DNA from: Candidatus Reidiella endopervernicosa
Lineage (GTDB): Bacteria > Pseudomonadota > Gammaproteobacteria > GCF-013343005
Direction of reading: 5' to 3'
DNA: 64,000 bases
NCBI RefSeq assembly: GCF_013343005.1
Contig: NZ_CP054491.1
Coordinates: forward strand, 2,400,501-2,464,500
The position numbers were made by a program, and so were the translations under genes. The notes under the pieces were generated by a model, which saw only the letters and a list, made by a program, of their open reading frames with translations, made no database searches and was not told where the DNA came from. Positions 7,850-63,875 of the stretch are shown in pieces; the first letter of the stretch is position 1; each line of letters starts with the position of its first letter.

Positions 7850-10800
7850 CTAGATAGGATCACTACAGACTTCACCACTGATCTCACTGCCATCAACATC
7901 GATGCTGGTGTTATCGGGCGTGGAATCGACTTCACATACAATTGCACCATCGTCGACAGCATCTTCCTCAGTAATATTGGTATTACTCAGCTCCACATCC
8001 TGGAATGTATCACTGAAGCTGCCATCATTATTTACATAGACGGAAGGACCATAGACGCCAGACTCCAATGTATCGCCGCTGAAGCTTACATCCTGATCCA
8101 CCAGACCATAATCACCATCTGCATCGATTCTTACCGGGATGCCATAACCCTCTCCTGCGTACTCATCAAAGCCAATCATATTATCACTCAGTGTGACATC
8201 CTGGGTTACATTGCCGCCATAGGGGGCATCGCCACCATCCGCAACAATATTGAGTGAGTACGTGCCATAGACGGGATCATGAAGTCTGGAACCAGAGGTA
8301 ATTGTATTGCCTGACAGGGTGGCTGTTTGATTAGTGACACCATAATCGTCAGCAACAGCAATCAGTCCGTTACCATACGCACTATCGATAACATTATCGG
8401 TCAAAGTGACCGTCTGATGCGATGTAGAGCCATAGTCACTACTGACTACGAAGTAGGCGCCAACAGCATTAATATTATCGAGTCCCTCATACTTGGAACC
8501 GATAATACTGCTATCCATGGTGACGGTCTGTTCAGTAAATCCGGTCAGATCACCATACTCCACCTCACCAACAATCGAACCGAGAGAGTAAGGAGACTCT
8601 TCTAAATATTTACCTGCCGATGCCAGCAACCCGATACCGTAGCCGTCGATTCGAGTTCCATTCTCGATGGTCAGATTCTGCTCAGTGTAGCCACCTTCGC
8701 CTGCAGAGGCATTCGCCAGTACACCAACGCCATAACCAAATACAACAGAGTCATCCAGCGTGACATTCTGCGTTGATGAACTTCCATACTTGGAGAAGAC
8801 GGTGGTGGTCATACCAGAGAAGAAACCTGTGAACTGGTCATTCTCTGACATAATCGTCTGCGTGCTTACACCGTATCCGAAACTTTCGGTATGTGCATAG
8901 AGACCATGGGCGACTCCGTAGGCCATATTGTCAGACATCGTAATGGTCTGGGCCGATCCGTAACCCGAGCCCGCGTCGCCACCTACAGGTACCCCATCTT
9001 CCCATTCATCGAATGCGTCTCCAGCAAGGTTGACCGCCATCACAGGAACGCTGTAGGACAAGACAACATTACCATCAAGATTGACATTCTGTACGCCGTA
9101 GGACCCTTCATGCTGAGCATCGTTATAGGCCAACACTGCAGGATTATCAGTAACGATCCAGTTATCTTCAAGGCTGACCGTCTGAGTTGAGATAGCACCG
9201 TACTTGGCGCTATTACTCATAACAACGCCGTAACCCGGACCGTAGATGTAATTGTTGCTGAATGAGACCGTCTGTGACCGACGCACCTTCAGAACCCTCG
9301 GCGGTTAGAGCAATAGCAGTACCGTAGTCGTCTGTATAGAAGGTGTTATTGGCGATCGTGCCCATAGTCGACACATCAGGTCCGTCAGAGAAATTATGGA
9401 TCTCATTCCCGTAGTTCCTGCAGCACCACTGAAGATATTGTGGTGGATATTAAAATCTGTGTTGTTGTCAGCCAGAATTCCGGTTGCATTTCCGGCAAAC
9501 CTAAGGCCCATCACGGTATTGCTGTCATTCAGGCGACCACTAACACCGCCATCAAACTCGCCCCCTTCAAGGGTAGGCATGTTTGACGATCCCAGCTCCA
9601 GCGGATCGCCGTTACCATCGTCTAGAATGTCGAGTAACTGATAACCTTGGCCCCAGAGAGTCTGACCATATTCGAGGGAGAAGGATTCTGTGTCGTAGGG
9701 AGAACTACCTTCATGGACGAAAATCAGCGCCCCTTCACTACCCTCACAGCGACCGGCATTACAATCCCCTACCGTCTCGTAGGGATTCGTTGCGCTACCA
9801 TCACCACCACCTTCACCACCTTCATTGTCGATGTGAATTACATCATCACTGTAGAGGGTACCGAAGTTACGGTTTTCGCTATCGGTCGGACCGGTGGTGA
9901 CGATATCGGGATCGCGACGGACCGGATCCATCATGCGCTCATTGAGCGTACGAATAGCACTCTTGCTCTTGTGGCCGAAGCTGTAACGAATCTCAGCGTA
10001 GTACTGCACATCACGCTGATCATCCTGCTGCACCTGAAGACCGAAGATCAGATTCTGCTGCGGACGCACCTCAAGACGAGCCCCCATGCCGGTAACGGTG
10101 GTATCGAGGTCACCACTAAAACGATAACCGCTGAGGAAGGCGCGGGTTTCAACTTCGTTTGAAACAGGCAGCAGACGGCCAATCTCGATATCACCACCGG
10201 CCAGTGCTTCTTCGTAGACACCACTACGGATCAGCGATGTACCCGAGAACCAGCCCTTGTTACCGACACCGACATACTGTTTATCAGTGATTGGATAGTA
10301 GTAGTTGGCGCGGAAGTCCCAGGTGTCGCTCAGCGCCTCAAAACCAAAGGTCAACTGGTCATAGACCTCTTTACTGCGCGATTGACGCTTGTCGAATGAG
10401 CCGAAACCACCGATGAGCCAGTTGTTAGAATCGTTGAACCAGCGACGTCCCAGAGCGACGTTGGCTTCCATCGCTGACCGCCATGGAGAGCGAAGTGAGG
10501 GCGGTTAGTCCCCGATAGTCGACGCCGTCTGTATATTCGTAGTTGAGAGCGCGAGCGAACGACGGAGAAGATGCAGCAGCGGCTTTATGTCGGCGTAGAG
10601 TCACTGAGGGAGTTGTGTAGAGCCGCGAAGAGGTGATTACGCAACGAACGCAGGACGGTCGGGGCGCCGCAGGCATAAACGGTCGCGTTAAGTATTTGCC
10701 GCTTGCTTGGGCTTGATGCCCAAAACAAACTTTCGCAAAAATAGCGACTCCCCGGCGTTTCCTTGTTGGTCCCAGTGAACTTAATATCAGTAAACCAGAG

Positions 10801-11037
10801 CGAGTCTTCACGGCGAGCCATCGCGAAAACAGCTTCCACGCCAACCAGTGCACGTCGATTGCCAGGTTTGAAGTAGGTTTCAATATTGACCGCATTGCTG
10901 GCCAGAGCCTGTGCCTCTGGCAGCATAGCCATTGCGACAGCTGCTGCAATCATGGTGTGTTTGAAGTGGGGAGATCGTTTCTGTCTTTCGTTACGTGCGA
11001 CAACCTGTGCTTTTGTACGGCTACGACGATGGCTCAT
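7850..11037 (-). pseudogene. inverse autotransporter adhesin (intimin/invasin-type barrel plus beta-helix repeats), interrupted
   Basis: Read from ATG 11037 (after GAGAGG), the product begins with MSHRRSRTKAQ and a long signal region. An inverse-autotransporter beta-barrel follows, with motifs such as GFGSFDKR, ANYYYPITD, GVGNKGWFSG and YYAEIRYSFG. Next come about twelve imperfect 25-45 residue repeats built on Q(T/N/D)VTLSDN, as in a parallel beta-helix passenger. Three lesions break it. Repeat element copy 8 is inserted after codon ACG; removing 10472-10755 gives KET-MEANVALGRRWF in frame. Two compensating one-base indels near 9.42 and 9.29 kb shift about 125 bp. Without the element the gene is 968 codons. 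An outer-membrane adhesin role is inferred from the family. Confidence 0.75.
10472..10755 (-). mobile_element. repeat element E283, copy 8 (inside adhesin gene, sense)
   Basis: A 284-bp member of the 11-copy family. It has the 5' end CCGGGGAGTCGC and the 3' end GGCGGTCAGCG on the minus strand. The left-hairpin arms are mixed: a type A 5' arm (GTTTG) and a type B 3' arm (CAAGC), which pair through a G-U wobble. The right end is type A. Excision restores the adhesin reading frame. Confidence 0.9.
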
Positions 11038-11338
11038 TGAGAAACCTCTCCATGGAATTGTTGTTTTGTCACAAACGATCATTAAAGATGAACGTCGATC
11101 ATAAGAATTTGCATAATTCTAGTCACAATTCCTGAAAATAACAACTAAACCCACCATTTATCATTCAAACAACAAACTCAATAATTACCCATATTACAAT
11201 CAGTTAGATAACATCTACTTTTCCAATGATGACATCAAAAATAAATCAGACCTGTTTGAGGCTAATAAGCTACAAAATAATCCCATTCTCAAATAGAGGA
11301 AAAAACTACTTACAGCACACATTTAGCTCACCTAAGCG
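11038..11338. other. AT-rich intergenic region
   Basis: About 300 bp of AT-rich sequence between the adhesin start and the end of the sulfotransferase gene, both on the minus strand. It must hold the adhesin promoter and probably the terminator of the upstream gene. I see no clear -35/-10 pair, intrinsic terminator or RNA gene. Confidence 0.5.
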
Positions 11339-13501
11339 CTATTCGACTGTATATCCAAGCGCTGAAATAGCCGGTTCGAGGATTGGAATAATCGCCTCAA
11401 GTTGTGTTCGGTAGTTCTTATATCGGAATACCGATCGGGTATAGAGCTTCTCAGTCACCTGCGCATAGCTGGCCGTTCTGGCAAAACGTTTGTTTTTGTG
11501 AAAATCGAGGCAGCGATCATCCCACTCCTCACCCACGAATTCGAGTAGCTCGCGGATATGGGTTTCAGGATTATCGACGATGTCCTCGTACCGAACCGCG
11601 TGATAACGCATATCGAGATTGGCTTTGTAATGCTCCACCAGCTCAAATATCAGAGCGTTCGGGGAGTCGCTATTTTGCGGAAGCTTGTTTTGGGCATCCA
11701 AGCCCAGCAAGCGGCAAATACTTAACGCGACCGTTTATGCCTACGGCGCCCCGACCGTCCTGCGTACGTTGCGTAATCACCTCTTCGCGGCTCTACACAA
11801 CTCCCTCAGTGACTCTACGCCGACATAAAGCCGCTGCTGCATCTTCTCCGTCGTTCGCTCACGCTCTCAACTACGAATAGGCAGACGGCGTCGACTATCG
11901 GGACTAACCGCCTTCGCTTCGCTATCCATGGCGGTCAGCGAGTGTTGTGCGGCACTAACCAGACTGTAGGAGCAGTTATCACCGTGAGTAAGATCATTGA
12001 AGTAGCTTGAAAGCACAACATCGAGAGGGTGACGAATCATATGAATAATGGGAGCGTCATTGAAGATCAGATTAATCAGTCCTAAATGCATCTCATTGAG
12101 CGGCATCTTGTCGGTAAAAAGCTTGGTCTCAGATCCAACGACACGATCGGCTATCGCATTGCAGAGGTAGTACTCACGCAGACTCTTCAACCCCGCCTCG
12201 AGCGTTGACTGATCCAGCTTGCTGAGAAATTCGGGAAACTCCCCTCTTCTTCCCAGCAGTGTGGGAGCTAGTTGACTGATACGCCACAAATAGGTGAGTT
12301 CATCGCCTGCCGAAATATTCGGGTGGGAAGTTAAGATCTGCTCGACCATCGTTGTACCAGAACGTGGGAAGCCAACAATAAACAGGGGGGTGGCCTGCTC
12401 TGGAACATCGGGATCATTACCGCAACACGGTATCTCCTTGATTCGACGTGCTTGATAAAACTGCTCGTAACGCTCAACAGTAGTTCGATTGGATGCGCTA
12501 TCGTATATCGACTCTCTCGTTTTCCGAATCAGGCTATTCGATTGATCGATGGCGACAAACGCCTCGTCAAATCTTTTCAATTTATCGAGCACCTGTGCGC
12601 GCTCATTGAAGTAACTAATTAAGAAAACATCCTTCTCATCCTCAACATCGATGCCATTAAGCTTTTCCAGAGCCTCCTCGAGTCGCCCTTCACGCCGCAA
12701 GAGTGTCGACTCAAGCACCAGACACGCCTTGTCAGAGGAGACCTTCCTTGCACGCTCTACAAGATCCCAGGCGGTATCAAAATGCTTCAATGACTCTTCA
12801 AGCTTGGCCCAGGTCAGTAGATTGACGGCGTTATCCGGTTCGAGCGCGACCGCTTTTCGATAGAAAGCGGCTGACTCCTCAATTTTTCCTTGCTGTTTTA
12901 GTACAAAGGCGAGATTGGCACAGAGCTTTCCAACCGGAATGTGTTGACTCAAGGCCTGTTTATAATGGTATTCAGCACCATCAGGCTGATGCATCTCTGC
13001 CAACACCATTCCCAGAACATTATGTGCTTGCGGATTGGTCGGGCGGATTCCAACAGCACGCCGAGCACAGCGTTCAGCCTCAGCATATCGTTTTAAATTA
13101 AGCAGCGTTTGGGCTGCATCACAGAGAAAGGCATCGCTTTCTGGACTGAGCATGACCAGCCTTGCCTGAAGATCGACCAGCTCATCACTGCTCACTTTGC
13201 GGGCTTTCATCAACCCAACCAACATACGCAGAGGGTCGATAGCCTTTGGAATTTCACTAATTAATTGTTGCAAACGATGCTCGGCAGCCTCTTGATCACC
13301 ACCATCCGTCAATGCCTTGGCAGCACTCATACCCTCTTCGATATGCTTGATGATGTGAGGTGGCACACCGCTTTTCTGAGACTGCTGATGTCGTGATACC
13401 GAACTGTTCTCTATCTCTCCACAGCAGTCTTTAAATTTCTTACCGCTACCGCATGGGCACGGACCATTTCTTGTTGGTGTTGTTGCTTGCTGCTGATTCA
13501 T
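11339..13501 (-). CDS. SEC-C / TPR / sulfotransferase protein, split by a repeat element
   Basis: The N-terminus has a SEC-C zinc motif (NGPCPCGSGKKFKDCC, residues about 12-27). A TPR array follows to about residue 300, then a sulfotransferase domain. The PAPS 5'-phosphosulfate loop is FIVGFPRSGTTMVEQ, and the 3'-phosphate motif is IHMIRHPLDVVLSSYF. The gene is cut by repeat copy 7 (antisense). With 11659-11940 removed the frame runs SAAQH-YALIFELVEHY and the protein has 626 residues, matching the conserved AA..Y tract of the family. As it stands, translation from 13501 ends inside the element and the last ~110 residues are separated. TPR-sulfotransferases sulfate peptides or glycans in other systems; the target here is unknown. 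Confidence 0.8.
11659..11940 (+). mobile_element. repeat element E283, copy 7 (inside sulfotransferase gene, antisense)
   Basis: A 282-bp copy beginning TCGGGGAGTCGC and ending GGTCAGCG on the plus strand, while its host gene is on the minus strand. The stem arms are type B (GCTTG with CAAGC), and so is the right end. Its antisense position is strong evidence against a purely RNA-splicing life cycle. Confidence 0.9.
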
Positions 13502-13521
13502 TAAAGGTAATCTCTATCCTT

Positions 13522-13804
13522 CGCTGACCGCCATGGAGAGCGAAGTGAGGGCGGTTAGTCCCCGATAGTCGACGCCGTCTGCCTATTCGTAGTTGAGAGC
13601 GCGAGCGAACGACGGAGAAGATGCAGCAGCGGCTTTATGTCGGCGTAGAGTCACTGAGGGAGTTGTGTAGAGCCGCGAAGAGGTGATTACGCAACGTACG
13701 CAGGACGGTCGGGGCGCCGCAGGCATAAACGGTCGCGTGAAGTTTTTGCTGTTTGCTTGGGCTTGGATGCCCAAAACAAACTTTCGCAAAATAGCGACTC
13801 CCGG
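13522..13804 (-). mobile_element. repeat element E283, copy 9 (intergenic)
   Basis: A 283-bp type A copy (GTTTG with CAAAC; right end type A) between the sulfotransferase start (13501) and the HIT gene end (13845). It lies in the same orientation as both genes. It occupies the space where the sulfotransferase promoter should be, so it may separate the gene from its promoter or provide one. Confidence 0.9.
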
Positions 13805-13844
13805 AGGTATCTCAGATTTGAGCATCGTCGTGTGACGACCAGAA

Positions 13845-17196: not shown

Positions 17197-17309
17197 AGGC
17201 AACCGATGCCAGCCACACCTCGGCGCCCGAATCCACTGCTGCGGCTGCTCCCTTCCAGGCCTGACCGGATTCACAGTTTCTCGTCGCGAGGGGACCAACA
17301 CCGGTCACC
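17197..17309 (-). ncRNA. ffs: signal recognition particle 4.5S RNA
   Basis: The minus strand carries the SRP core GGTCAGGCCTGGAAGG followed by GAGCAGCCGCAGCAG, the Ffh-binding apical loop and symmetric internal loop. Outer ends GGTGACCGGT and ATCGGTTGCC pair over ten base pairs, which sets the limits. Its place just upstream of dnaX is the usual one in gammaproteobacteria. Mature ends are estimated from the pairing. Confidence 0.9.
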
Positions 17310-30820: not shown

Positions 30821-31103
30821 CCGGGGAGTCGCTATTTTTGCGAAAGTTTGTTTTGGGCATCCAAGCCCAAGCAAACAGCAAAACTTAACGCGACCGTTTA
30901 TGCCTGCGGCGCCCGACCGTCCTGCGTACGTTGCGTAATCACCTCTTCGAGGCTCTACACAACTCCCTCAGTGACTCTACGCCGACATAAAGCCGCTGCT
31001 GCATCTTCTTCGTCGTCCGCTCGCGCTCTCAACTACGAATATGCAGACGGCGTCGACTATCGGGGACTAACCGCCCTCACTTCGCTCTCCATGGCGGTCA
31101 GCG
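30821..31103 (+). mobile_element. repeat element E283, copy 1 (intergenic)
   Basis: A 283-bp type A copy (arms GTTTG with CAAAC; right end type A) between the PPC-like gene and the 43-aa membrane protein gene. It is antisense to both, and splits what looks like a minus-strand operon. Confidence 0.9.
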
Positions 31104-33905: not shown

Positions 33906-33907
33906 AA

Positions 33908-38837: not shown

Positions 38838-39743
38838 ATGGATATTATTCACCACACCTTCGCTGACCGCCATGGATAGCGAAGCGAAGGCGGTTAGTCC
38901 CCGATAGTCGACGCCGTCTGCCTATTCGTAGTTGAGGCGCGAGCGAACGACGAAGAAGATGCAGCAGCGGCTTTATGTCGGCGTAGAGTCACTGAGGAGT
39001 TGTGTAGAGCCGCGAAGAGGTGATTACGCAACGTACGCAGGACGTCGGGGCGCCGTAGGCATAAACGGTCGCGTTAAGTATTTGCCGCTTGCTTGGGCTT
39101 GGAGGCCCAAAACAAGCTTCCGCAAAATAGCGACTCCCGGAATTGGGACTGCTGGACTGCACAGCGCAATCGAGATGGATCATCTTTACAGCGGGCACTG
39201 CATTCCTTCTAGGCAGCCTCTTTCCAGATCTTGATGTGCTATTTATTGTTTTGGAAGACGCTTCTACCTCAAAACCACCAGTCCCTGACTCACTCAGTTC
39301 CACTTGCCCCATTCTACGCACTGCTTATCTGCACACCTCTAATTATCATTGAGGGTTATTCATGGTCAACTCTGCTTGCAGCTCTAGCTGGTATTGCTCT
39401 GCATATAGCGCTCGACTGGTGTAACACCTTCCGAATCGCCCTCTTTGCACCGTTTAGTTTTCGACGTTACAGCCTCGATGCTCTCTTCTTTATCGACGCA
39501 ACGACACTCTTTCTTACCGTGCTCTACTTTTCGACATCTTATCTCACAGCCCCCTACCTGTGGTTGTCAGCACTCTATGGCGTATTATTCACTCTCTACC
39601 TTGCCTTCAAGATCCTGCTACATAACAAGGTCATCAAAGTGAACAGGTCGATATCGCGATTCCATCAAGCCTCAACCCCTTCTCATTTTATCTATTTAAA
39701 GAAGATCGAAACCATCACCACAGTTACCACTACAACAGCCTGA
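38838..39743 (+). pseudogene. YdjM-like membrane-bound metal-dependent hydrolase, interrupted
   Basis: ATG 38838 gives MDIIHHT, which is cut by antisense repeat copy 10. Removing 38861-39140 yields MDIIHHTLIGTAGL, the family's N-terminal motif with its His ligands. After a +1 shift near 39.17 kb it reads TAGTAFLLGSLFPDLDVLF, a family core motif. After another near 39.25 kb it reads THSVPLAPFYALLI, LALAGIALHIALDWCNTFRI and SLDALFFIDATTLF. Several helices follow to the stop at 39743. Members are predicted membrane hydrolases (YdjM is LexA-regulated in E. coli). Without element and indels the protein has about 208 residues. Confidence 0.7.
38861..39140 (-). mobile_element. repeat element E283, copy 10 (inside YdjM-like gene, antisense)
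   Basis: A 280-bp type B copy (GCTTG with CAAGC; right end type B), on the opposite strand to its host gene. It sits eight codons into the gene. Excision of the pyrimidine plus element gives a perfect N-terminal motif, which fixes both element ends to the base. Confidence 0.92.
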
Positions 39744-42802: not shown

Positions 42803-43087
42803 CCGGGGAGTCGCTATTTTTGCGAAAGTTTGTTTTGGGCATCCAAGCCCAAGCAAACAGCAAAAACTTAACGCGACCGTTTATGCCTTCGGCGCCCCGA
42901 CCGTCCTGCGTACGTTGCGTAATCACCTCTTCGCGGCTCTACACAACTCCCTCAGTGACTCTACGCCGACATAAAGCCGCTGCTGCATCTTCTTCGTCGT
43001 CCGCTCGCGCTCTCAACTACGAATATGCAGACGGCGTCGACTATCGCGGACTAACCGCCTTCGCTTCGCTATCCATGGCGGTCAGCG
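42803..43087 (+). mobile_element. repeat element E283, copy 2 (in RHS-like gene, sense)
   Basis: A 285-bp mosaic copy: the left hairpin is type A (GTTTG with CAAAC) while the right end is type B (TTCGCTTCGCTATCC). Excision joins CTGTTT to CGTGATGC and keeps the frame. Confidence 0.92.
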
Positions 43088-43844
43088 CGTGATGCAGAGG
43101 GCCAGCTCTCTCGCATAGTTGACAGTGAAGACCGAGAACTCCGTTTCTCCTTTAATAACAACGGTACAGTTTCCAGGATTGATGCAAGCGGAGGAAAAAG
43201 CGTTGTCTACCGGTATGACAACGATCGTCTTGTTCACACTCAGGATGCCGCTGGTAACTACTTCACCTATCGTTATGACGCTAACACCAACCTGATCACG
43301 ATTGGCTACGACGACGGTAGCAGCAGAATGATCACCTACACAGGAACCGAATTTGGTGGCAATCAGTTCGTACGCTCTGTAACAGAACGGGACAACATGA
43401 CCACCTGGTATAACTACGGCACCAACTACAGAAGAGACGATGGTGAGTCTTACTATACTGAGGTCATTAAAACCCGACCGGGAGCAAGAGTCGCACCAAC
43501 CGTTACGAATACACCATCGCCTATCGCGACGATGGCTCTACCTACACACAGCGCATACGTAACGATGTTAACGGCATCATTACTGACACCACCTACGACG
43601 AAAATGGCACACCTATCAACATTGAACGGGGTAACCGTGACACCCAATTCGAATATGATGATCGTGGTCGACTCACTCTAAAAATGATGGTGAGAGATAA
43701 CTCGACTTTTTATAACGACACCGTAAACAAGATATCGAAGGTCATTCAGTATCCCTCTGAATATCCTGAAAATGCGAAGATCTCTGTTTTTGAATACGAC
43801 GCAAATGGCAACCTCACCACAGCTTCAAACAGTGACGGTAAACG

Positions 43845-44126
43845 CCGGGGAGTCGCTATTTTTGCGAAAGTTTGTTTTGGGCATCCAAGCCCAAGCAAAC
43901 AGCAAAACTTCACGCGACCGTTTATGCCTGCGGCGCCCGACGTCCTGCGTTCGTTGCGTAATCACCTCTTCGCGGCTCTACACAACTCCCTCAGTGACTC
44001 TACGCCGACATAAAGCCGCTGCTGCATCTTCTCCGTCGTTCGCTCGCGCTCTCAACTACGAATAGGCAGACGGCGTCGACTATCGGGGACTAACCGCCCT
44101 CACTTCGCTCTCCATGGCGGTCAGCG
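43845..44126 (+). mobile_element. repeat element E283, copy 3 (in RHS-like gene, sense)
   Basis: A 282-bp type A copy at both ends, 757 bp after copy 2. Excision joins AAACG to CGTGCACC, giving DGKRVHLIYDDAG. Confidence 0.92.
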
Positions 44127-44316
44127 CGTGCACCTCATCTACGATGATGCGGGTCAGATCATAAGATCAGAATTTGAAGACACCGCATTGATCTTCACCT
44201 ATAACGCCATGAGCAAACCCATCACCATCGCTATCGAAGATGTCGGCTCGCTTTCTATCGCCTATGACGATGATGGTGAGATCACAAAAGTTGAAAGTTC
44301 CGATGGCAGTCAAGAG

Positions 44317-44599
44317 TCGGGGAGTCGCTATTTTGCGGAAGCTTGTTTTGGGCATCCAAGCCCAAGCAAGCGGCAAATACTAACGCGACCGTTTATGCCT
44401 ACGGCGCCCCGACCGTCCTGCGTACGTTGCGTAATCACCTCTTCGCGGCTCTACACAACTCCCTCACTGACTCTACGCCGACATAAAGCCGCTGCTGCAT
44501 CTTCTTCGTCGTTCGCTCGCGCTCTCAACTACGAATAGGCAGACGGCGTCGACTATCGCGGACTAACCGCCTTCGCTTCGCTATCCATGGCGGTCAGCG
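44317..44599 (+). mobile_element. repeat element E283, copy 4 (in RHS-like gene, sense)
   Basis: A 283-bp type B copy at both ends, 190 bp after copy 3. Stem arms are GTCGC (44324-44328) with GCGAC (44385-44389), GCTTG (44341-44345) with CAAGC (44367-44371) and TTGGGC with GCCCAA around a six-base loop. Excision joins CAAGAG to TTGGCA and leads to the natural stop at 44675. Confidence 0.92.
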
Positions 44600-44687
44600 T
44601 TGGCACTACTCATTACCCAATCATTCCAGGCACTCTTATCACTGGTGAAACCAGCTGGCGTTAACCTAAACCTGTAAGGACACCACT

Positions 44688-47600
44688 GTGACAACAAGAA
44701 TAACAACCACAATTACAAATAACAGACTGTTATCTGCAGCTATCGGACTAGGTTCACTACCGCTATGTAACCAGATCAGTGCCAACATTGATAACACCGA
44801 AACCCGCATGCAGTCTGATGTGGCGATATTGATTCAGGCTGGTCATGCGACTGCTCCTAATAAAGTTATCGCCTACCATAATAGTGACACCAGTCTTCTT
44901 GAAACCTGGGACGGTATTGATGTACGTCTATGGCGTCGTGCCATTACCGCTGAACCATGGCAAATACTACGTCACTGGAAAAGCCTGCCCGGGGAGTCGC
45001 TATTTTTGCGAGAGTTTGTTTTGGGCATCCAAGCCCAAGCAAACAGCAAAAACTTCACGCGACCGTTTATGCCTGCGGCGCCCGACGTCCTGCGTACGTT
45101 GCGTAATCACCTCTTCGCGGCTCTACACAACTCCCTCAGTGACTCTACGCCGACATAAAGCCGCTGCTGCATCTTCTCCGTCGTTCGCTCGCGCTTCCCA
45201 ACTACGAATAGGCAGACGGCGTCGACTATCGGGGACTAACCGCCCTCACTTCGCTCTCCATGGCGGTCAGCGAAGGCGCCTGGAGTCACTCCCACAAAGA
45301 TGTCACGCACTATTTCTCCAGCAACGTTGATGGTCACTTTGAACTGTTCGATGCAGAGAATTTTTCACGCCTCTATCGTGTAACAGCCAGAATGACACCT
45401 GACCATTCGCCTGACACTCACATCATTAAAGGTGATGGTGGTTCTTCCACCATTATCGCGATACCTGAACTCGATAACGAGGATAGTCCCTATCTCTCAC
45501 TCCATCTTGGAACAAAAGATGGCGGCTTCTCCATCTGGCAACCCTTTGCTGGTGAAAGAGAGGTCACTGATTTATTTGAGCTCGCTAATGGCCTATTCGC
45601 CGTTCGTCTCGACAAGAGTGATTGGCAGCTCATACGGGTTAAACCCAATGGAAGCAGCCAGAGAGTCACCCTACCCAGTCTACCCTCAGAAGTCCCAAAG
45701 ATACGCAAGCTAACAGATGGCCTATTTGGGGTCGCGATCTACGATGATGCACTACGTAGAGATAAAGACGACGGTGCACTCTGGCATCTATTCAGAATCA
45801 ACTCCGGCGATGAGATCGAGCCTCTACAGCTCTCGGGGTTTGAACCGGGTGCCGTGAAGAGTATTCACCGCATATCAGACCATCTCCTACGATTAACAAG
45901 TCGCACATCAGAAGATGTTGATCACTCATTGCAGACTCACTTCTACCGGATTAACGAATCGAAACAGGCTATTGAAGTTCATAAAGACATTACTGGTATC
46001 CCTGATTTGACTCGCAACTTCCGACTGCTGGCCAATGGTGAACTCGTCGGAGCGGCTGAAGTAGATGATGCAGATGGAGACGGTACACCGGGTGATTGGG
46101 TATGGCGCATGCGCGACTCACAGGGAGAGTGGCGCACACCTCAAGAGATACTCCCAGAACTCTCTGGAAAAATATGGACCATGAGCGACTGGCATGATGG
46201 TCAAGGGATCGGGGTTCAAACCATGACTGGCGAATCAGGCGCTGAATACACCTCCCAGTGGTATCTCCGAGACAACAAGACCAAGCAGTGGCACTCCGCC
46301 GAAAAAACGCTTCCCCTTCATGATGATCTGGCGATAGACACCATTCACGAGCGTCGAGATGGACTATTTGAAATTACCAGCATGCTTGATGCCGCCATTA
46401 AACCTGATTTCGACTCACCCGTACCCGTCGTTATTCAGAGCACCCACTGGGTGATGCGTGCAGAGGATGGAGAGTGGAACGACGTTAGGAGCATAGTTGC
46501 CAAGCACCGTCCTGGACTGGAAAAGAAAATCATCGCTGTCGATGCCCGAAGCAACGGCTTGATGGTCGATATCCAGCGTAACCATGATGAGACACCGATC
46601 AGACTGCTTTTTACAAGAACCGTGATCATCAGTGGGTCATGTTAGATAACACCATGCTCACAACAGCCTCAAGCTCAGCAGCATCTAATAAACGCCCCTT
46701 CAGCAAGGTCAAACATAGTGAGGTACTGGCCAGTGGGCGTCTAATCCTGTTGCATGAACAGGACGATGCCAACTTGGGATGGTGAGTGGAGATATCCAGT
46801 TACTGCAATCAGGTAGTGAGGGATGGCGGCTACTTCAAGCACAGAATGCACTCGGTGGTAAGGCGGCCCAGCTTCGCTATGACGCTGATCTTGGTCTGTT
46901 AGTACGCAGTAGCCATACAGGTGGCAGCAAGCATACTTCCGCCTCGATCACGATGGGTCATGGACTGACGTACGCACCCTAATTCCAAATGCCCCAGCAG
47001 GCTAGCATCAGCGTTCACCTTCGCCAACAGCCGCGGCGTGGCGATTAAAAGACACGATGCCAATGGTAATGGTCGTTTTGGCGAGTGGTATTTTACTATC
47101 CTGACAGTCAGGGCTGGCACGATATCTCCACCCTCCTCCCAAATGCATTTCCTGCTATTCAGACCATTATCGACGCCGGTGGACGTTCTACCATCAGCGT
47201 TCAGGAGGCGGGGATGCCAACCGTAACGAGATCGCCAACGAGTGGCACCACTACTACCGTAATGGAGATCAATGGATAGATCTTCAACAGCAGTGGCCGA
47301 ATTACCGGAAGAACTCTCCGAGCTACGTGTCTCAGCCGACGGTCGTGTCTTAACCGCTCGCGAAGAGTGGGACTCAAATGGCAACGGCGAGTCATTTGAG
47401 TTGATCGCAGCTATCTGGTCGGATAAACAACATCGATTTATTCCTGTCTCAACTCTAATAGAACAACCGCTACAACAGATCAGCGACATCCGCAGTCTGT
47501 GGAGTGGTCGTGGTATCGTATACAGGTAAGCAATGCAGAACAAACTAGTTCCATCACCTCAAGTACAACGGTTGCTGGTGGTCATAGATGGCTGCTCTAC

Positions 47601-50261: not shown

Positions 50262-50349
50262 TGGCGGAGAGGGAGGGATTCGAACCCTCGATACGTTGCC
50301 GTATACACACTTTCCAGGCGTGCTCCTTCGGCCACTCGGACACCTCTCC
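50262..50349 (-). tRNA. tRNA-Ser (anticodon GGA)
   Basis: Acceptor stem GGAGAGG pairs with CCTCTCC, followed by discriminator G and an encoded CCA. The anticodon stem-loop carries CTGGAAA with anticodon GGA (reads UCC/UCU). A long variable arm (class II) and the T-loop GGTTCGAATCC are present. Length is 88 nt including CCA. Confidence 0.95.
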
Positions 50350-52751: not shown

Positions 52752-55243
52752 AAAACCATACACATACGATCACTCTTATCGCCCTTATCGGCATCGTTGT
52801 GATCGTCGTGAGCAGTGTCACCATATTCAGATACATGGAAGAGTCACTGATCGAGCAACACCGTGAACAGTTCATTATTGACTCTACGGCTAAGCTGGAT
52901 GGTTTGGTCAACACTCTTGAAGAGCGTCGTTTTCACCTCAATGCCTTTACCCAGCTACCAACATTTAAATCATTACGCTTTCATCAACTCAGCCTCAATT
53001 ACGCGGCGATACGAGATGACCTACGACATCTGGAACTCTATTTTCTTGAGCTTCAACACCGTCAGCCCGATTTTCTCTCCGTCCACTACTTCAATAACGA
53101 GGGCACAGAACGATTTAGTGTCAAAAACGGCATTATTCAAAACCAGCTGGGGCGTATCGAACGCTTCGCCCCCTCCGGTTTTGCGGCCAAACTTCAGCAT
53201 GGTGAGCTACGTGTCACTCAGAGTAGCAATGAGGAGATCACCAGTTTGACCTGGTGGCTGCCGGTCTATAGCTCTATCAATCATCGTCTCGGCACCCTCT
53301 CCTTCACCTATAGTTTTAAACCCATCGCCAATGCATTGATAAATCTGGCACAGGAGGGCCGAAGCTGTTCAATATTGAGTGAAAAACAAGGCCGTCTATT
53401 ACTCTCATCGGAAGAAGTCGGAGATGATATAAAGCTGCGCTCCGGCAGTTGGTTTGTTAGCCGAGACCTGCCACTACCAGGAATTGACTGGCAGGCGACG
53501 CTCTATGCGCACAAAGATGAAATCCTGAAAAATGTCACCACATTTCGGCAAGTCGCGCTGTATGGACTAGCACCCCTGATCTCTCTGCTGCTGGTCTTTC
53601 TTATCATTATCTCAATTAAACGGCTGGAGGCGGAGCGTAAAATTCGCCATATGGCCTACTATGACGAATTGACCGGACTGGTTAATCGCAACCACTTTGA
53701 AGAACGTCTCATTCAGACCATCACCCATACGCAACAGACCGGCATCCACCATGCACTGCTCTACCTCGATCTGGATCAGTTCAAGGTAGTCAATGACACC
53801 TGCGGCCACCTGGCGGGAGATCATCTCCTCATCCAGCTCGGTGAACTACTGCAAAAGAAGACCCGTGAACACGATACTCTGGCTAGACTCGGCGGTGATG
53901 AGTTTGCAGTTCTGCTGGAGGACTGTCCCGAATCCAACGCCGTGCATATCGCAGATGAGATCCTCAAATCTGTCACCGAATTTAGATTTATCTGGGATGG
54001 AAAACCCTTCACCGTTGGCGTGAGTATCGGCATCGCATCTATTCATGACCGAGATCAGAGGCCACAGGATGTGATGAGTGCCGCCGATATGGCCTGTTAT
54101 ATGGCCAAAGAGCTGGGACGTAACCGCATTCATCTCTATACGGCAGATGATCTCGACCTCGCCCGTCGTCACGGCGAGATGCAGTGGGTCTCACGAATCA
54201 AACGCGCGCTTGAAGAGGAGAGTTTTTTTCTCGAGTGCCAACCGATCATCCCACTCGGCGATGAGGAGAGACCATCACTACGTTGGGAGATGTTAATCCG
54301 GCTACGCGAAGAGGAGAAGGTGATACTCCCTGGTGCCTTCATCGGCTCAGCCGAGCGGTATGGATTGATGCCAGATATCGATCGCTGGGTGATCGATACG
54401 GCTATCGAACTGCTCTCGACCTTCTATCACATCGGGGAGTCGCTATTTTGCGGAAGCTTGTTTTGGGCATCAAGCCCAAGCAAGCGGCAAATACTAACGC
54501 GACCGTTTATGCCTACGGCGCCCTCGACTGTCCTGCGTTCGTTGCGAATCACCTCTTCGCGGCTCTACACAACTCCTCACTGACTCTACGCCGACATAAA
54601 GCCGTTGCTGCATCTTCTTCGTCGTTCGCTCGCGCTCAACTACGAATAGGCAGACGGCGTCGACTATCGGGGACTAACCGCCTTCGCTTCGCTATCCATG
54701 GCGGTCAGCGCGGGTCAACTGGAACCGGGTAAACTGGTCTTCTTCATTAACATATCGGGCTGTACAATTAGCGAGAAATCACTCTTTAAACACATCAAAA
54801 AACAGCTCGCCCATCATCATGTTCCACCTCAGGCGGTCTGTTTTGAGATCACCGAAACGGCCGCAATTTCCAATCTGACCGATGCGGTAGAATTCATGGG
54901 ACAGCTACGCGAATTGGGCTGTGCGGTGGCACTCGACGATTTTGGCGCGGGTCTCTGCTCATTTACCTACCTTAAATCGATACCTGCCGACTACCTGAAG
55001 ATCGATGGCAGCTTCATTCAGCACATGCTCGAGCAACCGATGGATGCCGCCATCGTTGAGGTCATCAAATACATTGGCGATGCGGCATCACTCAAAACCA
55101 TCGCCGAGTTTGTCACCAGTGACAAGATCCGAATAGAACTTGAAGCGATCGGTATCAACTATGCACAGGGATTTGGTATCGAGCGTCCCGGTCCATTACA
55201 CAAGATGATCTCCAAGGTGCATGCAGACAAATTAAGTGACTGA
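52748..55243 (+). CDS. membrane GGDEF-EAL cyclic di-GMP enzyme, split by a repeat element
   Basis: Two membrane helices (LIALIGIVVIVVSSVTIF near the start; ALYGLAPLISLLLVFLIIIS near residue 285) flank a periplasmic sensor domain. The GGDEF domain has RLGGDEFAVLL (GGDEF at about residue 382) and intact nucleotide motifs, so cyclase activity is plausible. The EAL domain begins WEMLIRL (EML in place of EAL). After repeat copy 6 it continues FFINISG, FEITETAAISN, VALDDFGAGLCSFTYLKS and LKIDGSFI, which keep most metal-binding residues. Removing 54432-54710 gives FYHTGQLEPG and an intact 738-residue protein; as it stands, translation stops inside the element, leaving the GGDEF half and a separate EAL half. 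Confidence 0.88.
54432..54710 (+). mobile_element. repeat element E283, copy 6 (in GGDEF-EAL gene, sense)
   Basis: A 279-bp type B copy, the shortest, with several single-base gaps relative to the others. It begins TCGGGGAGTCGC and ends GGTCAGCG. Excision joins TATCACA to CGGGTCAA and restores the frame between the GGDEF and EAL halves. Confidence 0.92.
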
Positions 55244-58046: not shown

Positions 58047-58078
58047 AGCGGCTCTCCTCACTTATTTCTCTACTTGAT

Positions 58079-58414
58079 CTAGGGCATGGCCCGCGCAACG
58101 GTGCGGCCATCCATGGTTTTGAGTGTTGGGGTGGTGGGTACAGATGCGATATGGCAAATCAGCTGTGGACGACTTCGACTGCGATTGAGTCGAATCACGG
58201 CCAATGCCTCACGTGCCTGATGTAGTTCAACCTCTAGCTGAGGATTGTGGTGAGCCTTTCGTCCCACCCACATGCCTATCGAAATTCCCATCACTCCGCC
58301 CACTGATATCCCCAGAAGCAGGCCGATACTCAGGTCGAACAGCGGTGCCAAACTCACACCAGCAGCCAATATCGATACCACCCCGATCACTACACCGATC
58401 TCTCTCTTATCCAT
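58079..58414 (-). CDS. small membrane protein of the sortase cluster
   Basis: ATG 58414 follows GAGGAG at six bases, giving 111 residues: two Gly-rich hydrophobic helices (IGVVIGVVSILAAGVSLAPL and LLLGISVGGVMGISIGMWVG), then a helical, partly basic tail ending RTVARAMP. The frame extends to 58447 without another start signal. Function unknown. As the first gene of the minus-strand sortase operon, divergent from the response regulator, it may help assemble or localise the sortase system. Confidence 0.65.
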   Translation of the reverse strand: MDKREIGVVIGVVSILAAGVSLAPLFDLSIGLLLGISVGGVMGISIGMWVGRKAHHNPQLEVELHQAREALAVIRLNRSRSRPQLICHIASVPTTPTLKTMDGRTVARAMP

Positions 58415-58668
58415 TGTCTGCTCCTCTATTGATTGATCCAGCGCCACCCTCCGTGGCGGTGATCGCTTTAAGCTGCGATCGATCCCTTACTGCGCCGGTT
58501 TGCTCTACGGTCTCTATTCAACACCTGGCGAGGCGTTCATTCTTTGGCGAGCGTTGAAGAGAATCTGGAGAAATAGTGGAGAATGGTTGAACGGTGCTCT
58601 ACAGCAGAGGGAGATTGGGGTAGATTGAGCCCTCACTGGCCATGAGCCGAAAGCAAGGGAGGCAGAGA

Positions 58669-59364
58669 GTGCAACGAACCATCGCCATCGTCGAAGATGA
58701 CAACGACCAGCGACAGAACTACAGCGATGCGCTGGAGCGCCGCGGCTATCGTGTCGAGACCTATGCCGACCGCCCCTCAGCACTCGAACAGCTGAGCAAT
58801 AGACCACCCGATCTGGCTATCCTCGACATCATGCTCGGCAGCGATGTCGATGGTGGCTTCGATCTCTGTCGCAGTCTGCTCGCCGAACACCCCGAACTGC
58901 CGGTGATCTTCCTTACCAGTCGCGTTGATGACATCGACCGTATCTCCGGGCTACGCCTCGGCGCGTGGGACTATCAGAGCAAACCGGTCTCACTCGCCTA
59001 CCTGGCTGAAAGGGTCGGTTCGCTTTTTCGCATTCTCGACCTAAAAGAGGGGCGCGGGGTTGAGCAGTCACAGCAGATCGGTGATCTCACCCTGGATGAG
59101 GCGCGTTTCGAGGCGAGTTGGCAGGGTGAGAAGATCGCACTGACCTTCACTGAATTCAATGTACTCAAAGAGATTGTCGACCAACGTGACGGCCGTGGCG
59201 CCAGCTACGAAGATCTCGCTAACGCCACCCGGCAGGGGGTGGTGGAGAACAACACCATCAACACCCATATCCTCCACATACGCGCCAAGTTCCGACAGCT
59301 CGACAAGGAGTTCGACTCTATCCGTAGCGTCTACGGTTACGGCTACCGCTGGAGCGCTCGTTGA
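58669..59364 (+). CDS. pdsR: sortase-system response regulator (PdsR type)
   Basis: An OmpR-type regulator of 231 residues from GTG 58669, which has GGGAGG just upstream and gives the family start (M)QRTIAIVEDD; ATG 58642 is in frame but less likely. The receiver has acidic EDD, phospho-Asp in LAILDIMLG, Thr in VIFLTSR and Lys in YQSKPVS. A winged-helix DNA-binding domain follows (FTEFNVLKEIVDQRDG, SIRSVYGYGYRW). This dedicated pair is found only with class GN sortase clusters and presumably controls them from the divergent promoter region at 58415-58668. Confidence 0.9.
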   Translation: MQRTIAIVEDDNDQRQNYSDALERRGYRVETYADRPSALEQLSNRPPDLAILDIMLGSDVDGGFDLCRSLLAEHPELPVIFLTSRVDDIDRISGLRLGAWDYQSKPVSLAYLAERVGSLFRILDLKEGRGVEQSQQIGDLTLDEARFEASWQGEKIALTFTEFNVLKEIVDQRDGRGASYEDLANATRQGVVENNTINTHILHIRAKFRQLDKEFDSIRSVYGYGYRWSAR

Positions 59365-61418
59365 GCAGACACACCGGCATCGGACTCGGTACCAAACTGG
59401 TCCTCTCCAGTTTGGTGTTGTTGGCGATCCCCTGGTTCGGCTACAGCTACCTGCAGGAGATGAAACAGTTCCTGCTGCAGGGACAGGAGAAGGCGCAGCT
59501 GATGGCCGCACGTGCGGCCGCCACCGCACTGCACAACCGCAACGATCTGTTCGATCCCAGCAGTGGTCTACCGGGTCCGCTGCATCAGAAGAGCGCCTTC
59601 TACGCCTACCCACTCAAACCCGATATTCAGATCGATGGCTACACCTCCGACTGGTTAGATCTGCTCGAGCACGCCTCCAAGCATGGTGAGGAGAGCACCA
59701 TTCATATCGATGAGCGTCGACGTGAGGTTCCTCCCTCCTTCAAGCTGATCCTCGGCGTCAATGGTGAACACCTCTATGGCGTCATCGAAGTCAAAGACCC
59801 CAAGCTGGTCTATCGACACCCCGGTTACCGTCGTCTCGATAACAGTGACCACCTGCGTCTGGCGCTGGTTGATAATCAAGGCAAGCTGCGTCGCTATCTG
59901 ATGACCACCGAGGGACCAGGTATCGTCACCACCTATGAGGTCGATGAACGCTGGCGCTATCCGCTCGATGGCAAACCGAGTTACGGCATCTGGGGCCATT
60001 GGCGCGAACAGAGCGGTGGTTACACCGTGGAGTGGCGCATGCCTCTAACGATGCTCAACACCGAACAGCGACTGCGTATCGATGTCGCCGATGTGCTTGA
60101 TGACAACGACCGCCGTGTCTCAGCCCTGATCGGCACCCTACCTGCTGAGTGGTCTGATGAACTCAACCATCTGATCGTCCGCTCCACTGAGCTTGAACAG
60201 ATCCTCTCTGGACTCGGACGAAGCAGCGCCCACATCTGGGTAATCGATCGCTATCGAAGGGTGCGCGCCAGTATCGGCGCTGCTGGCGGCAGCACTACTG
60301 CGAGTCTTGATGAGTCTCTGGTACAGGAGGCACTCAGCGGTGAGAGCAGCATCGGTTATCGACACAACAGTAACAACAGTGAGGTAGAGACAATCATCAC
60401 CTCCCATCCGATCTATTCCAGGGAGCAGGTCGTCGGAGCGGTAGTACTGGAGCAGGATGTCGATGAGATCCTGTTACTACAGCGTCAGACCTTTGAGAAG
60501 ATAGCACTCACCACCCTGTTGATCTTGCTACTGAGTATCATCACGCTGCTGCTCTTCTCCTACCGTCTCACCTGGCGCATAAAGCGACTCAGCCGTGAAG
60601 TGGGTGAGGTGATTGATGATAAGGGGCGTGTACTCTGCGCCGGCGTTAAGTCGGGGCATCGATCGGGAGATGAGCTAGGTGAACTCTCACGCAGCATCTC
60701 CTCCATTCTGGAGCGACTCCACCACTACCACCGTTTTCTCGAAAACATTCCACGCACCCTACGCCATGAGATCAACAACCCGCTCAATGCCATCAGCACC
60801 TCACTGCAAAACCTCTGCGATGCTCAGCCTGATCTGACCGATAACCGCTATCTACAGGGTGCCGAGCGTGGCATTACACGCCTGGGACGGATTATGGATA
60901 GCCTCACCGAGGCTGCCAGCCTTGAAGAAGCGCTGCGCAACGACAAGCTTGAACCACTTGATATCAGTTCACTCTGCAGCAGCTATGTTGAGAACTGTCG
61001 TCTCGCAAATAAACAGCAAAAGTTCACCCTCAAGGGTGGCGAGCAGCCCTGTTTTATTGAGGGATGCGATTTCAGACTCGAGCAGATACTCGACAAGTTG
61101 ATCGATAATGCCGCTGACTTCACCCCTGAGGGGGGTGAGATTGCAATCACACTCAGCTGCGATCTCGAACAGATGACAATGGAAATCAGTAATGAAGGAC
61201 CACTGCTTGATACCAAGTTACAGGGCCAACTCTTCGACTCAATGATCTCCTACAGATCTGCAGCACAGCAGGATGGACCACACCTTGGTATTGGGCTCTT
61301 TGTTGCGCGCACCATCGTCGAATACCATCGCGGCAGTATCAGAATCGCTAATCGTGCCGATGAGAAAGGAGTAGCCGTTACGATTAAATTCCCGCAGATC
61401 AAAAAACAAACAAATTAA
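59361..61418 (+). CDS. pdsS: sortase-system sensor histidine kinase (PdsS type)
   Basis: A 685-residue kinase starting at TTG 59361, overlapping the regulator's stop. An N-terminal helix (LVLSSLVLLAIPWFGYSYL) leads to a periplasmic domain of about 370 residues with a carbohydrate-binding-like beta-rich part (IQIDGYTSDWLDLL). A second helix (ALTTLLILLLSIITLLLF) and a HAMP-like linker follow. The H-box is LRHEINNPLNAIS, and the ATPase boxes are DNAADFTPEGGE and GIGLFVARTIVEYHRG. The sensed signal is unknown but is probably an envelope or glycan cue. Confidence 0.9.
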   Translation: MSRHTGIGLGTKLVLSSLVLLAIPWFGYSYLQEMKQFLLQGQEKAQLMAARAAATALHNRNDLFDPSSGLPGPLHQKSAFYAYPLKPDIQIDGYTSDWLDLLEHASKHGEESTIHIDERRREVPPSFKLILGVNGEHLYGVIEVKDPKLVYRHPGYRRLDNSDHLRLALVDNQGKLRRYLMTTEGPGIVTTYEVDERWRYPLDGKPSYGIWGHWREQSGGYTVEWRMPLTMLNTEQRLRIDVADVLDDNDRRVSALIGTLPAEWSDELNHLIVRSTELEQILSGLGRSSAHIWVIDRYRRVRASIGAAGGSTTASLDESLVQEALSGESSIGYRHNSNNSEVETIITSHPIYSREQVVGAVVLEQDVDEILLLQRQTFEKIALTTLLILLLSIITLLLFSYRLTWRIKRLSREVGEVIDDKGRVLCAGVKSGHRSGDELGELSRSISSILERLHHYHRFLENIPRTLRHEINNPLNAISTSLQNLCDAQPDLTDNRYLQGAERGITRLGRIMDSLTEAASLEEALRNDKLEPLDISSLCSSYVENCRLANKQQKFTLKGGEQPCFIEGCDFRLEQILDKLIDNAADFTPEGGEIAITLSCDLEQMTMEISNEGPLLDTKLQGQLFDSMISYRSAAQQDGPHLGIGLFVARTIVEYHRGSIRIANRADEKGVAVTIKFPQIKKQTN

Positions 61419-61591
61419 ATAGACTCACTATTGACTCGCAACAACCTATCAACACAGTCCGATTCAAGTCCGAATAGTTGAGTCAAAACAATATATCGAT
61501 ATATGCCGTTTTTCCGATATATTCAGTTTCAGTGCTGTTATCAAAATTGTTGTTAACGATGTTCTGGAGTGCATGCTAAATTGTCTCGCAG

Positions 61592-63028
61592 ATGAGACAC
61601 CTTTCAATAAACAGACTCCTGCCAACCACCTCACTGATACTGACGCTTCTTGCAGCAGCGACGCTGTTGGTCTCATGCAGCAAACCGCTCTCACAGCTGG
61701 AGCGGATCAAAAAGCGCGGTGAACTGATCGTGCTAACGCGTAACAGTCCCACGACCTACTACGAAGGCCCCAACGGACCGGCCGGTCTTGAATACGATCT
61801 GGCGGTACGCTTTGCTGAGCAGCTTGGAGTCAAGCTTCGAATTGAGGTGCCTGAGAACCTGAACCAGATCCTACAGATGGTTGATCGCGGTGAGGGAGAT
61901 CTCGCTGCAGCGGGCCTGACCATCACCAACAAACGCAAGAAGAAGGTGCGTTTTGGCCTTCCCTATCAGACTATCGTGCAGCAGTTGGTCTATAGAAACG
62001 ACGGCATCAAACCGAAAAACATTGACGATCTCGCTGAGGGTGTTCTAGAGGTGGTTGCTAGTAGCAGCCACGTCGAACGGTTGCAAGCGCTGCGCAGAGA
62101 GCATCCAGGGCTGATGTGGAATGAGAACAGCGAACAGGAGAGTGATGAACTGCTCTATCTGATCTGGCAGCGACTGATCGATTTCACCATCGCCGACTCC
62201 AACGAATTTGCCCAGAACCAGCGTTTCTACCCGGAGCTGCGCGCCGCCTTCGATATCAGTGAACCCGAGAAGCTCGGCTGGGCGCTACGCCTCTCTACCG
62301 ATGATTCACTCTATGACGAGGTCATCCGGTTTTTTACCACCTTGAAAAAAAGCGGCGAGCTGGAACATCTGCTCGATCGCTATTACGGCCACACCAAACG
62401 TTTTGACTATGTCGATACCCGCACCTTCCTCGACCAGAGCGAGGTTCTACTACCCAAATATCAACCGCTGTTTGAAGCGGCCGCCAAGAGATACAACTTC
62501 GATTGGCGTCTGCTTGCTGCCACCAGTTATCAGGAATCACACTGGGACCCTAAGGCCAGATCACCGACCGGGGTGCGCGGCTTGATGATGCTGACCCTGG
62601 CCACTGCCAAACAGATCGGGGTGAAGAGCCGGCTCGACCCAGAACAGAGTGTGATGGGTGGAGCAAAGTATCTGCGCCAGCTGATCGACCGTCTACCAGA
62701 CGGGATCAAAGAGCCCGACCGCACCTGGATGGCACTGGCCGCCTATAACATCGGTTACGGCCACCTTGAGGATGCCGGCACCCTGGCCGAGCGTCGTAAT
62801 GACAATCCAACCCTGTGGGTCGATATCAAAAAGAGTCTGCCACTGCTCAACAAACGTAAGTGGTATAGCACCGTCAAATACGGCTATGCGCGAGGTCGTG
62901 CCCCACTCCACTATGTAAGGAATATTCGCCGCTACTACGACCTGCTGGTAAAGGCGACCACCGAGGTGAAAGAGCCCGTTCCAGAGGCTGAGCACGACGC
63001 ACTGACCATCACCACACCCACGCTATAG
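61592..63028 (+). CDS. mltF: membrane-bound lytic murein transglycosylase F
   Basis: A 478-residue lipoprotein with lipobox LLVSC (Cys29). An N-terminal bacterial extracellular solute-binding (SBP_bac_3-like) module follows (ELIVLTRNSPTTYYEGPNG, GDLAAAGLTITNKRKK). A C-terminal SLT lysozyme-like domain has catalytic Glu315 in SYQESHWDP, then GVRGLMMLTLATA and ALAAYNIGYGHL. It cleaves the glycan strands of peptidoglycan to 1,6-anhydro ends at the outer membrane. Length and both domains match the family. The 174 bp upstream includes an imperfect inverted repeat (GACTCACTATT with AATAGTTGAGTC) of unknown use. Confidence 0.95.
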   Translation: MRHLSINRLLPTTSLILTLLAAATLLVSCSKPLSQLERIKKRGELIVLTRNSPTTYYEGPNGPAGLEYDLAVRFAEQLGVKLRIEVPENLNQILQMVDRGEGDLAAAGLTITNKRKKKVRFGLPYQTIVQQLVYRNDGIKPKNIDDLAEGVLEVVASSSHVERLQALRREHPGLMWNENSEQESDELLYLIWQRLIDFTIADSNEFAQNQRFYPELRAAFDISEPEKLGWALRLSTDDSLYDEVIRFFTTLKKSGELEHLLDRYYGHTKRFDYVDTRTFLDQSEVLLPKYQPLFEAAAKRYNFDWRLLAATSYQESHWDPKARSPTGVRGLMMLTLATAKQIGVKSRLDPEQSVMGGAKYLRQLIDRLPDGIKEPDRTWMALAAYNIGYGHLEDAGTLAERRNDNPTLWVDIKKSLPLLNKRKWYSTVKYGYARGRAPLHYVRNIRRYYDLLVKATTEVKEPVPEAEHDALTITTPTL

Positions 63029-63032
63029 AAAA

Positions 63033-63497
63033 CTACGCTCGACGTGCGCGGAAGAAGGCGCGCAGCATCTCACTGCTCTGCTCAGCCATTACACCACCGA
63101 CCACCTCACAACGGTGGTTGAGATTCTCATCCTGAAGAAGATTACAGATCGAACCGGCTGCCCCGGTACGCGGATCAGTAGCGGCAAAGACGACCCTTGC
63201 CACACGTGCATGCACCATTGCACCAGCACACATCGGACACGGCTCAAGCGTCACGTAGAGGGTCGTGCCAGGCAGCCGGTAGTTCTGCTGCTGCTGCGCA
63301 GCAGCGCGTAGTGCCTGAATCTCGGCATGGGCCGTTGGATCGTGACCAGCGATAGTCAGGTTCCACCCCTCTCCGATCACCTCGTCATTCTGGACCACTA
63401 CCGCTCCCACCGGAACCTCACCTTCAGCCTCTGCTCGTCGAGCCAGCGCCAGCGCTCGACTCATCCACTCAATATCTCGCTCTTCATCAGCCATCAA
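63033..63497 (-). CDS. tadA: tRNA-specific adenosine deaminase
   Basis: A 154-residue deaminase forming inosine at tRNA-Arg position 34. The zinc and catalytic residues are His57 and Glu59 in TAHAEIQAL and Cys87/Cys90 in EPCPMCAGAM. The family tract VFAATDPRTGAAGS is present. It is convergent with mltF, with 4 bp between stops. Repeat copy 11 lies 95 bp upstream, on the same strand. Confidence 0.95.
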   Translation of the reverse strand: MMADEERDIEWMSRALALARRAEAEGEVPVGAVVVQNDEVIGEGWNLTIAGHDPTAHAEIQALRAAAQQQQNYRLPGTTLYVTLEPCPMCAGAMVHARVARVVFAATDPRTGAAGSICNLLQDENLNHRCEVVGGVMAEQSSEMLRAFFRARRA

Positions 63498-63592
63498 TCA
63501 ACATCCAGTCCAAAATTAGATCGTTTGCCATTCTAACAGCCTGTTTAGTGGCAATTTAGAGTGAGTAACGACATGTCGCTTAAAGCCAACCC

Positions 63593-63875
63593 CGCTGACC
63601 GCCATGGAGAGCGAAGTGAGGGCGGTTAGTCCCCGATAGTCGACGCCGTCTGCCTATTCGTAGTTGAGAGCGCGAGCGAACGACGAAGAAGATGCAGCAG
63701 CGGCTTTATGTCGGCGTAGAGTCACTGAGGGAGTTGTGTAGAGCCGCGAAGAGGTGATTACGCAACGTACGCAGGACGGTCGGGGCGCCGCAGGCATAAA
63801 CGGTCGCGTGAAGTATTTGCCGCTTGCTTGGGCTTGGATGCCCAAAACAAACTTTCGCAAAATAGCGACTCCCGG
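63593..63875 (-). mobile_element. repeat element E283, copy 11 (intergenic)
   Basis: A 283-bp copy with mixed stem arms (type A GTTTG, type B CAAGC) and a type A right end, between tadA and the gene starting at 63933. It lies in the divergent promoter region of the two genes. Confidence 0.9.

Follow-up and report, generated by a model that had tools for sequence, protein, structure and literature searches.

What kind of element can stand in eleven near-identical copies in 64 kb of bacterial DNA, and how does it move? The question is raised by a 64,000-nucleotide (nt) stretch of the Candidatus Reidiella endopervernicosa genome (hereafter the window; positions 2,400,501–2,464,500 of contig NZ_CP054491.1), in which an earlier note, made from the letters of the window alone, had described a non-coding mobile repeat, E283. 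The source genome is a single closed contig of 3,446,950 bases (3.45 Mb). Here, we show that E283 is real, mobile and highly amplified, that it inserts cleanly beside one fixed base, and that its minus strand folds and is found preferentially on the lagging-strand template. With modest confidence, we regard E283 as most likely a non-autonomous single-strand (HUH-type, IS200/IS605-like) transposon that is moved by a Y1 transposase acting in trans.

Copy number, exact ends and insertion of E283

All eleven copies were present where the earlier note had placed them. They are 279–285 bp long, are 93–97% identical to the copy at 10472, and lie on both strands of the window (seven plus and four minus):

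10472–10755, minus strand: E283 copy 1, within a 497-amino-acid (aa) open reading frame (ORF) once the copy is removed
11659–11940, plus strand: E283 copy 2, the reference copy, within a TPR/sulfotransferase-like ORF of 581 aa once the copy is removed
13522–13805, minus strand: E283 copy 3 (left end ±1 nt)
30821–31103, plus strand: E283 copy 4
38861–39141, minus strand: E283 copy 5 (left end ±1 nt)
42803–43087, plus strand: E283 copy 6, in an RHS-like ORF
43845–44126, plus strand: E283 copy 7
44317–44599, plus strand: E283 copy 8
44989–45272, plus strand: E283 copy 9
54432–54710, plus strand: E283 copy 10, interrupting a GGDEF/EAL-type gene
63593–63876, minus strand: E283 copy 11 (left end ±1 nt)

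The copies share the ends that had been described: the left one is a pyrimidine followed by CGGG(G)AGTCGC, the right one GGCGGTCAGCG. Four of the copies fall within 2.5 kb (42803–45272), around RHS-like sequence.

The expectation of hundreds of copies per genome was also borne out, with 323–346 counted in the source genome, or about one per 10 kb; the density in the window is above this average. The lower count comes from a 31-mer of the core, for which as many as three mismatches were allowed (157 matches on the forward strand, 166 on the reverse strand and 0 for the reversed control) and the higher from a right-end pattern (345–346 matches). Together, the copies make up about 2.8% of the genome's DNA. 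Individual copies were analysed in detail in sampled stretches of the source genome amounting to 1.26 Mb, which contain 160 complete copies. The 156 of these that could be trimmed have a mean identity of 96% to their own consensus and are mostly 280–285 bp long. At locus L018 (1803–2191), a complete copy directly adjoins a partial one, of which the right 108 bp are present and the left part is missing.

E283 is not an assembly artefact, a possibility that the note had raised itself, because the copies are set in unrelated flanks, the genome is closed as a single contig, and other organisms, sequenced independently, also carry relatives of the element. It is also non-coding, as proposed: no reading frame is conserved across the copies, and base pairing is conserved instead.

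Mobility was demonstrated by comparison with two exact empty sites, the first on a plasmid of Legionella antarctica and the second in the source genome. In the L. antarctica plasmid pTUM19329-1, a 261-bp relative of E283 splits a Tn3-family transposase gene, and an intact copy of the gene is present on the same plasmid. Comparison of the filled and empty sites (CACCTTAT|CAAGAATC; junction TTAT|CAAG) showed that 0 bp were duplicated and 0 bp lost, with a boundary that is ambiguous by one base, since element and target both start with C. In the source genome, the copy at L054:1774 has two paralogous empty loci, and one of them (L014) reads TATG|AAGG, again with 0 bp gained or lost. The inserted unit from this comparison is Y-CGGGG...CAGCG. 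The left end therefore stands as first described, with the refinement that the empty site at L014 assigns the first pyrimidine to the element. In agreement with the empty sites, target duplication was not above the level of shuffled pairs when the flanks of 90 E283 copies were compared. Insertion at a CG core by a serine recombinase was excluded, as the junctions of the empty sites are without CG.

The flanks are close to random except at one position. The fourth base after the right end (+4) is G in 150 of the 156 trimmed copies, whereas +5 is G in just 3 of the 156. The same +4 G is found in 139 of 140 family members recovered from public genomes, in ten of the eleven window copies and in three of four copies on the Methylomonas plasmid. 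On the minus strand, this base reads as CNNN^, i.e. the minus strand of the element follows a C and three free bases. For the reference copy, the flank is:

11941–11944, plus strand: NNNG after the right end, with G at +4 the one fixed insertion-site base

Folding of the minus strand and its orientation to replication

Conserved pairing was assessed in a minus-strand alignment of 21 diverse family members (58% mean column identity). RNAalifold returned 38 pairs, 19 of them with compensatory changes. With a left-end helix added, 95.3% of cells are paired, compared with 82% in shuffled and 31–48% in slid controls. Both-sided changes occur in 20 pairs, and compensatory cells number 115 (35 when shuffled), with a covariation score of 0.363 compared with 0.128. 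Cells with G.T on the minus strand far outnumber those with A.C (107 versus 6), and therefore the minus strand is the strand that folds. Single-sequence folding agrees weakly with this assignment (z-score −1.9 for the minus and +0.2 for the plus strand). In minus-strand order, the flank CNNN is followed by hairpin P1, a closing helix P2 that encloses the arms P3 and P4, the hairpin complex P5/P6 and ∼7 nt to the end. In the reference copy, these parts are:

11903–11939, minus strand: P1, a 10-bp hairpin at the 5′ end of the structured strand, adjoining the flank (100% of cells paired and 3 compensatory pairs in the 21 members)
11749–11902, minus strand: P2–P4, the multibranch core with a CCCCGAU/GUCGGGG closing helix and arms P3 and P4
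11666–11731, minus strand: P5/P6, the left-end hairpin complex (GUCGC..GCGAC) with an inner hairpin

Two E283 subfamilies in the source genome have compensatory differences in the inner hairpin of the left-end complex. A palindromic derivative of ∼167 bp, with two right ends in inverted orientation, was observed at L077/L082 (G352 contig 13).

The GC skew of the source genome places the origin near 0.57 Mb and the terminus near 2.26 Mb, the points at which its sign flips. Relative to these points, the E283 minus strand is on the lagging-strand template in 129 of the 160 sampled copies (81%; p = 2e-15). Copies in reading frames have the same bias, at 24:6 for lagging-strand frames and 20:8 for leading-strand frames. 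As the bias holds for frames on either strand, transcription direction does not explain it. In contrast to replication, host genes impose no orientation on E283 (32 same and 26 opposite), and an intron reading of the element was rejected for this reason.

Exact removal of the element restores an ORF of at least 250 aa in 43 of the 131 copies with enough context, compared with 17 to 30 when the join is placed 1–2 nt off; the same ORF test at random positions gives 47%. Up to a third of E283 copies thus appear to be in reading frames, an upper estimate that includes a background of overlapping frames. Clear cases of interruption include GGDEF/EAL-type, histidine-kinase-like and TPR/sulfotransferase-like genes, names that were read from the sequence and not from a profile search.

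A wider gammaproteobacterial family

The element had been expected to be limited to one clade. Instead, we found the family in several orders of Gammaproteobacteria, and E283 is one lineage-specific burst within it. The first divergent members came from a search of 56 relatives. With the right-end pattern, 17 of 369 genomes of the class were carriers, and when 399 genomes sampled at phylum level were searched with a stricter pattern, only the source genome matched. Among named genomes, at least 120 stretches matched, and the matches listed include the endosymbionts of Lamellibrachia anaximandri and Escarpia laminata, Thiocapsa roseopersicina, Thiorhodococcus minor, T. mannitoliphagus, Chromatiales and many metagenome-assembled genomes of Gammaproteobacteria. 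Most matches in the Lamellibrachia symbiont are at contig ends, fitting a repeat that breaks assemblies. Family members are also present on plasmids of L. antarctica, Methylomonas and Methylobacter. Carriage by phages was rejected, as no phage record matched and viral matches were confined to two IMG/VR contigs. The family is diverse, and its common features are both ends, the covarying minus-strand structure and the +4 G insertion rule.

No named family had been recognised for E283, and we found none. Its terminal sequences did not occur in a relevant context in the literature searched, and there was no credible Rfam match (none for E283 at E ≤ 10, and none for its relatives at gathering thresholds). 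The small RNA SrbA was considered and rejected: one relative matched it weakly at two collinear places (E 0.48 and 3), and a bona fide SrbA is dissimilar to the family profile. The E283 family is therefore large and apparently not described in the libraries used (Rfam and the literature), even though its structure is kept by compensatory change. Its hosts include tubeworm symbionts, purple sulfur bacteria, methanotrophs and Legionella, and its repeats break assemblies and seed recombination. The family opens a tractable line of enquiry into the enzyme that mobilises hundreds of elements at the replication fork, with a single fixed base in their target, and into the role of the conserved core.

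Candidate routes of movement

IS200/IS605 elements (PMC6006769) insert into the lagging-strand template, carry subterminal hairpins, and are bounded by a target tetranucleotide on the left and a terminal tetranucleotide on the right. E283 resembles them and their non-autonomous derivatives (e.g. palindrome-associated transposable elements) in having hairpins at both ends and exact insertion without target duplication. It also shares with IS200/IS605 a fixed base in the tetranucleotide 5′ to the cut (CNNN) and an active strand on the lagging-strand template. Because of this match, we propose single-strand transposition, and from it we infer the enzyme class, the single-stranded intermediate and mobilisation in trans. 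The minus strand would be exposed on the lagging-strand template, where the enzyme would bind the end hairpins. The strand would be cut behind CNNN at its 5′ end and, at its 3′ end, behind the last bases of the element itself, and the single-stranded copy would then enter another lagging-strand template, 3′ to a CNNN.

Several observations weigh against single-strand transposition of this type. Only one of the four target bases of E283 is fixed, compared with the conserved tetranucleotide of IS200/IS605. E283 has no tnpA with the same ends; guide sequences were not identified in it, and the single fixed base gives no pairing signal. It also has a covarying core of ∼150 nt between the end hairpins, which exceeds what end recognition needs and may also act as RNA. 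No transposase gene with E283 ends was found among the Y1 genes examined. None of the 23 Y1/RAYT (REP-associated tyrosine transposase; REP, repetitive extragenic palindrome) loci scanned is flanked by element ends, and the only match was a Y1 gene interrupted by E283. Likewise, Y1_Tnp is not enriched in carriers (13 of 17, versus 228 of 352 other genomes). The source genome has three Y1 genes: a Y1/RAYT gene truncated at its 3′ end by an E283 copy (L055 1016–1866), a frameshifted gene, and an apparently intact RAYT gene (L056 1047–1930) that is flanked by its own GTAG-type REP repeats (GTAGGATGGGCA-type), a separate repeat family. RAYT was rejected as the partner of E283, since the Y1 genes are not flanked by its ends, several in carriers have GGGGTCAG-type flanks, and their presence is not enriched.

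The REP, bacterial interspersed mosaic element (BIME) and REPIN repeats are similar to E283 in their hundreds of copies, their hairpins with conserved non-Watson–Crick pairs and the absence of an internal transposase. For cleavage, TnpA-REP (RAYT) uses a minimal site, CT or CA (PMC8266576), which the single fixed base of E283 also matches. However, these repeats are roughly 20–100 bp long, whereas E283 is 283 bp, has two different ends and has many copies in reading frames. In E283, the GTAG/GGAG tag of REP and REPIN sequences is absent, the 5′ foot of P1 is CNNN|CG(CTG...) in aligned members, and no RAYT gene is flanked by the element. We did not file E283 under either IS200/IS605 or REP: searches yielded no cognate transposase, the REP tag is absent and only one of the four target bases is fixed. 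The CGTC-tagged palindromic repeats are likewise abundant and without a known dedicated transposase (PMC3733652). In contrast to E283, they are short single palindromes, mostly alphaproteobacterial, with no multi-helix core.

In a more tentative reading, the family would be an unrecognised class: a structured RNA of ∼280 nt (or a folded single strand) with a covarying core would itself be required for movement, and would be recognised in trans by a non-assigned protein that needs one fixed base in the target. If true, this class would be a bacterial equivalent of short interspersed nuclear elements (SINEs), acting at the replication fork.

A SINE-like RNA in the stricter sense is unlikely. Here, a group II intron-type reverse transcriptase acting in trans would copy the minus-strand RNA, with priming at the replication fork and integration that leaves no duplication. 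The RNA-like covariation with conserved G.U pairs and the absent target duplication speak for it, and group II elements can retrotranspose with a preference for the lagging strand. However, RVT_1 was not found in the closed source genome by a search that did find reverse transcriptases in control genomes, there is no group II or other Rfam match, and the flanks carry no base-pairing signature beyond one G. The random orientation to genes (32/26) also means that E283 is not spliced as an intron.

Slightly less likely still is a rolling-circle HUH element (IS91/ISCR or Helitron-like, with a Y2 transposase) that lacks its gene. This class could also account for the absence of target duplication, a hairpin near one end and a single-strand bias, and in Legionella a family copy is present at the end of an IS91-family gene. 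Yet the element ends this reading frame near its 3′ end, and the gene looks simply interrupted. There was no Y2_Tnp match in the source genome, in a search whose controls were also silent. An apparent composite transposon (E283–408 bp–E283), present at the two loci L020 and L027, is more readily attributed to homologous recombination between copies of E283: the match ends exactly at the outer ends, but the identical tract starts within one copy and stops within the other, and the outer parts differ.

An RNA-guided system (IS110 bridge RNA, IscB/HEARO omega RNA or TnpB reRNA), with its nuclease or recombinase in trans, is improbable. A conserved RNA-like structure in a non-autonomous element without target duplication would suit it, and HEARO/omega RNAs and group II introns are also mobile elements with structured RNA. 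Unlike these, E283 has no Rfam match (HEARO included), no reverse transcriptase in the genome, no motif resembling a target-adjacent motif (TAM) and no sense orientation. IS110 also fits poorly, since no IS110 (DEDD) transposase was found in the source genome and E283 insertion sites are random except for the +4 G. A TnpB gene does adjoin one family member, at ∼90 bp, on a Methylobacter plasmid (L287 3001–4457). This TnpB is ordinary, having many relatives (it is up to 66% identical to common plasmid TnpBs), and such a neighbour recurs at none of the other loci fetched. In the Escarpia laminata symbiont, L142 (2677–4365) was considered as an autonomous copy and rejected, as its insert of 1.4 kb proved to be an IS110-type insertion sequence, with a 376-aa transposase, that has itself inserted in the left-end hairpin of a family member. 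This resembles the targeting of REP hairpins by IS110-group elements.

Finally, a classical miniature inverted-repeat transposable element (MITE) of a DDE insertion sequence, which would be similarly small, non-coding, mobile and numerous, is very improbable, as E283 lacks both terminal inverted repeats (only 6 matching bases among the terminal 20) and target duplication, and the empty sites contradict it.

Elsewhere in the window, the minus strand encodes a bacterial small signal recognition particle RNA (17204–17300) and a tRNA (50265–50349).

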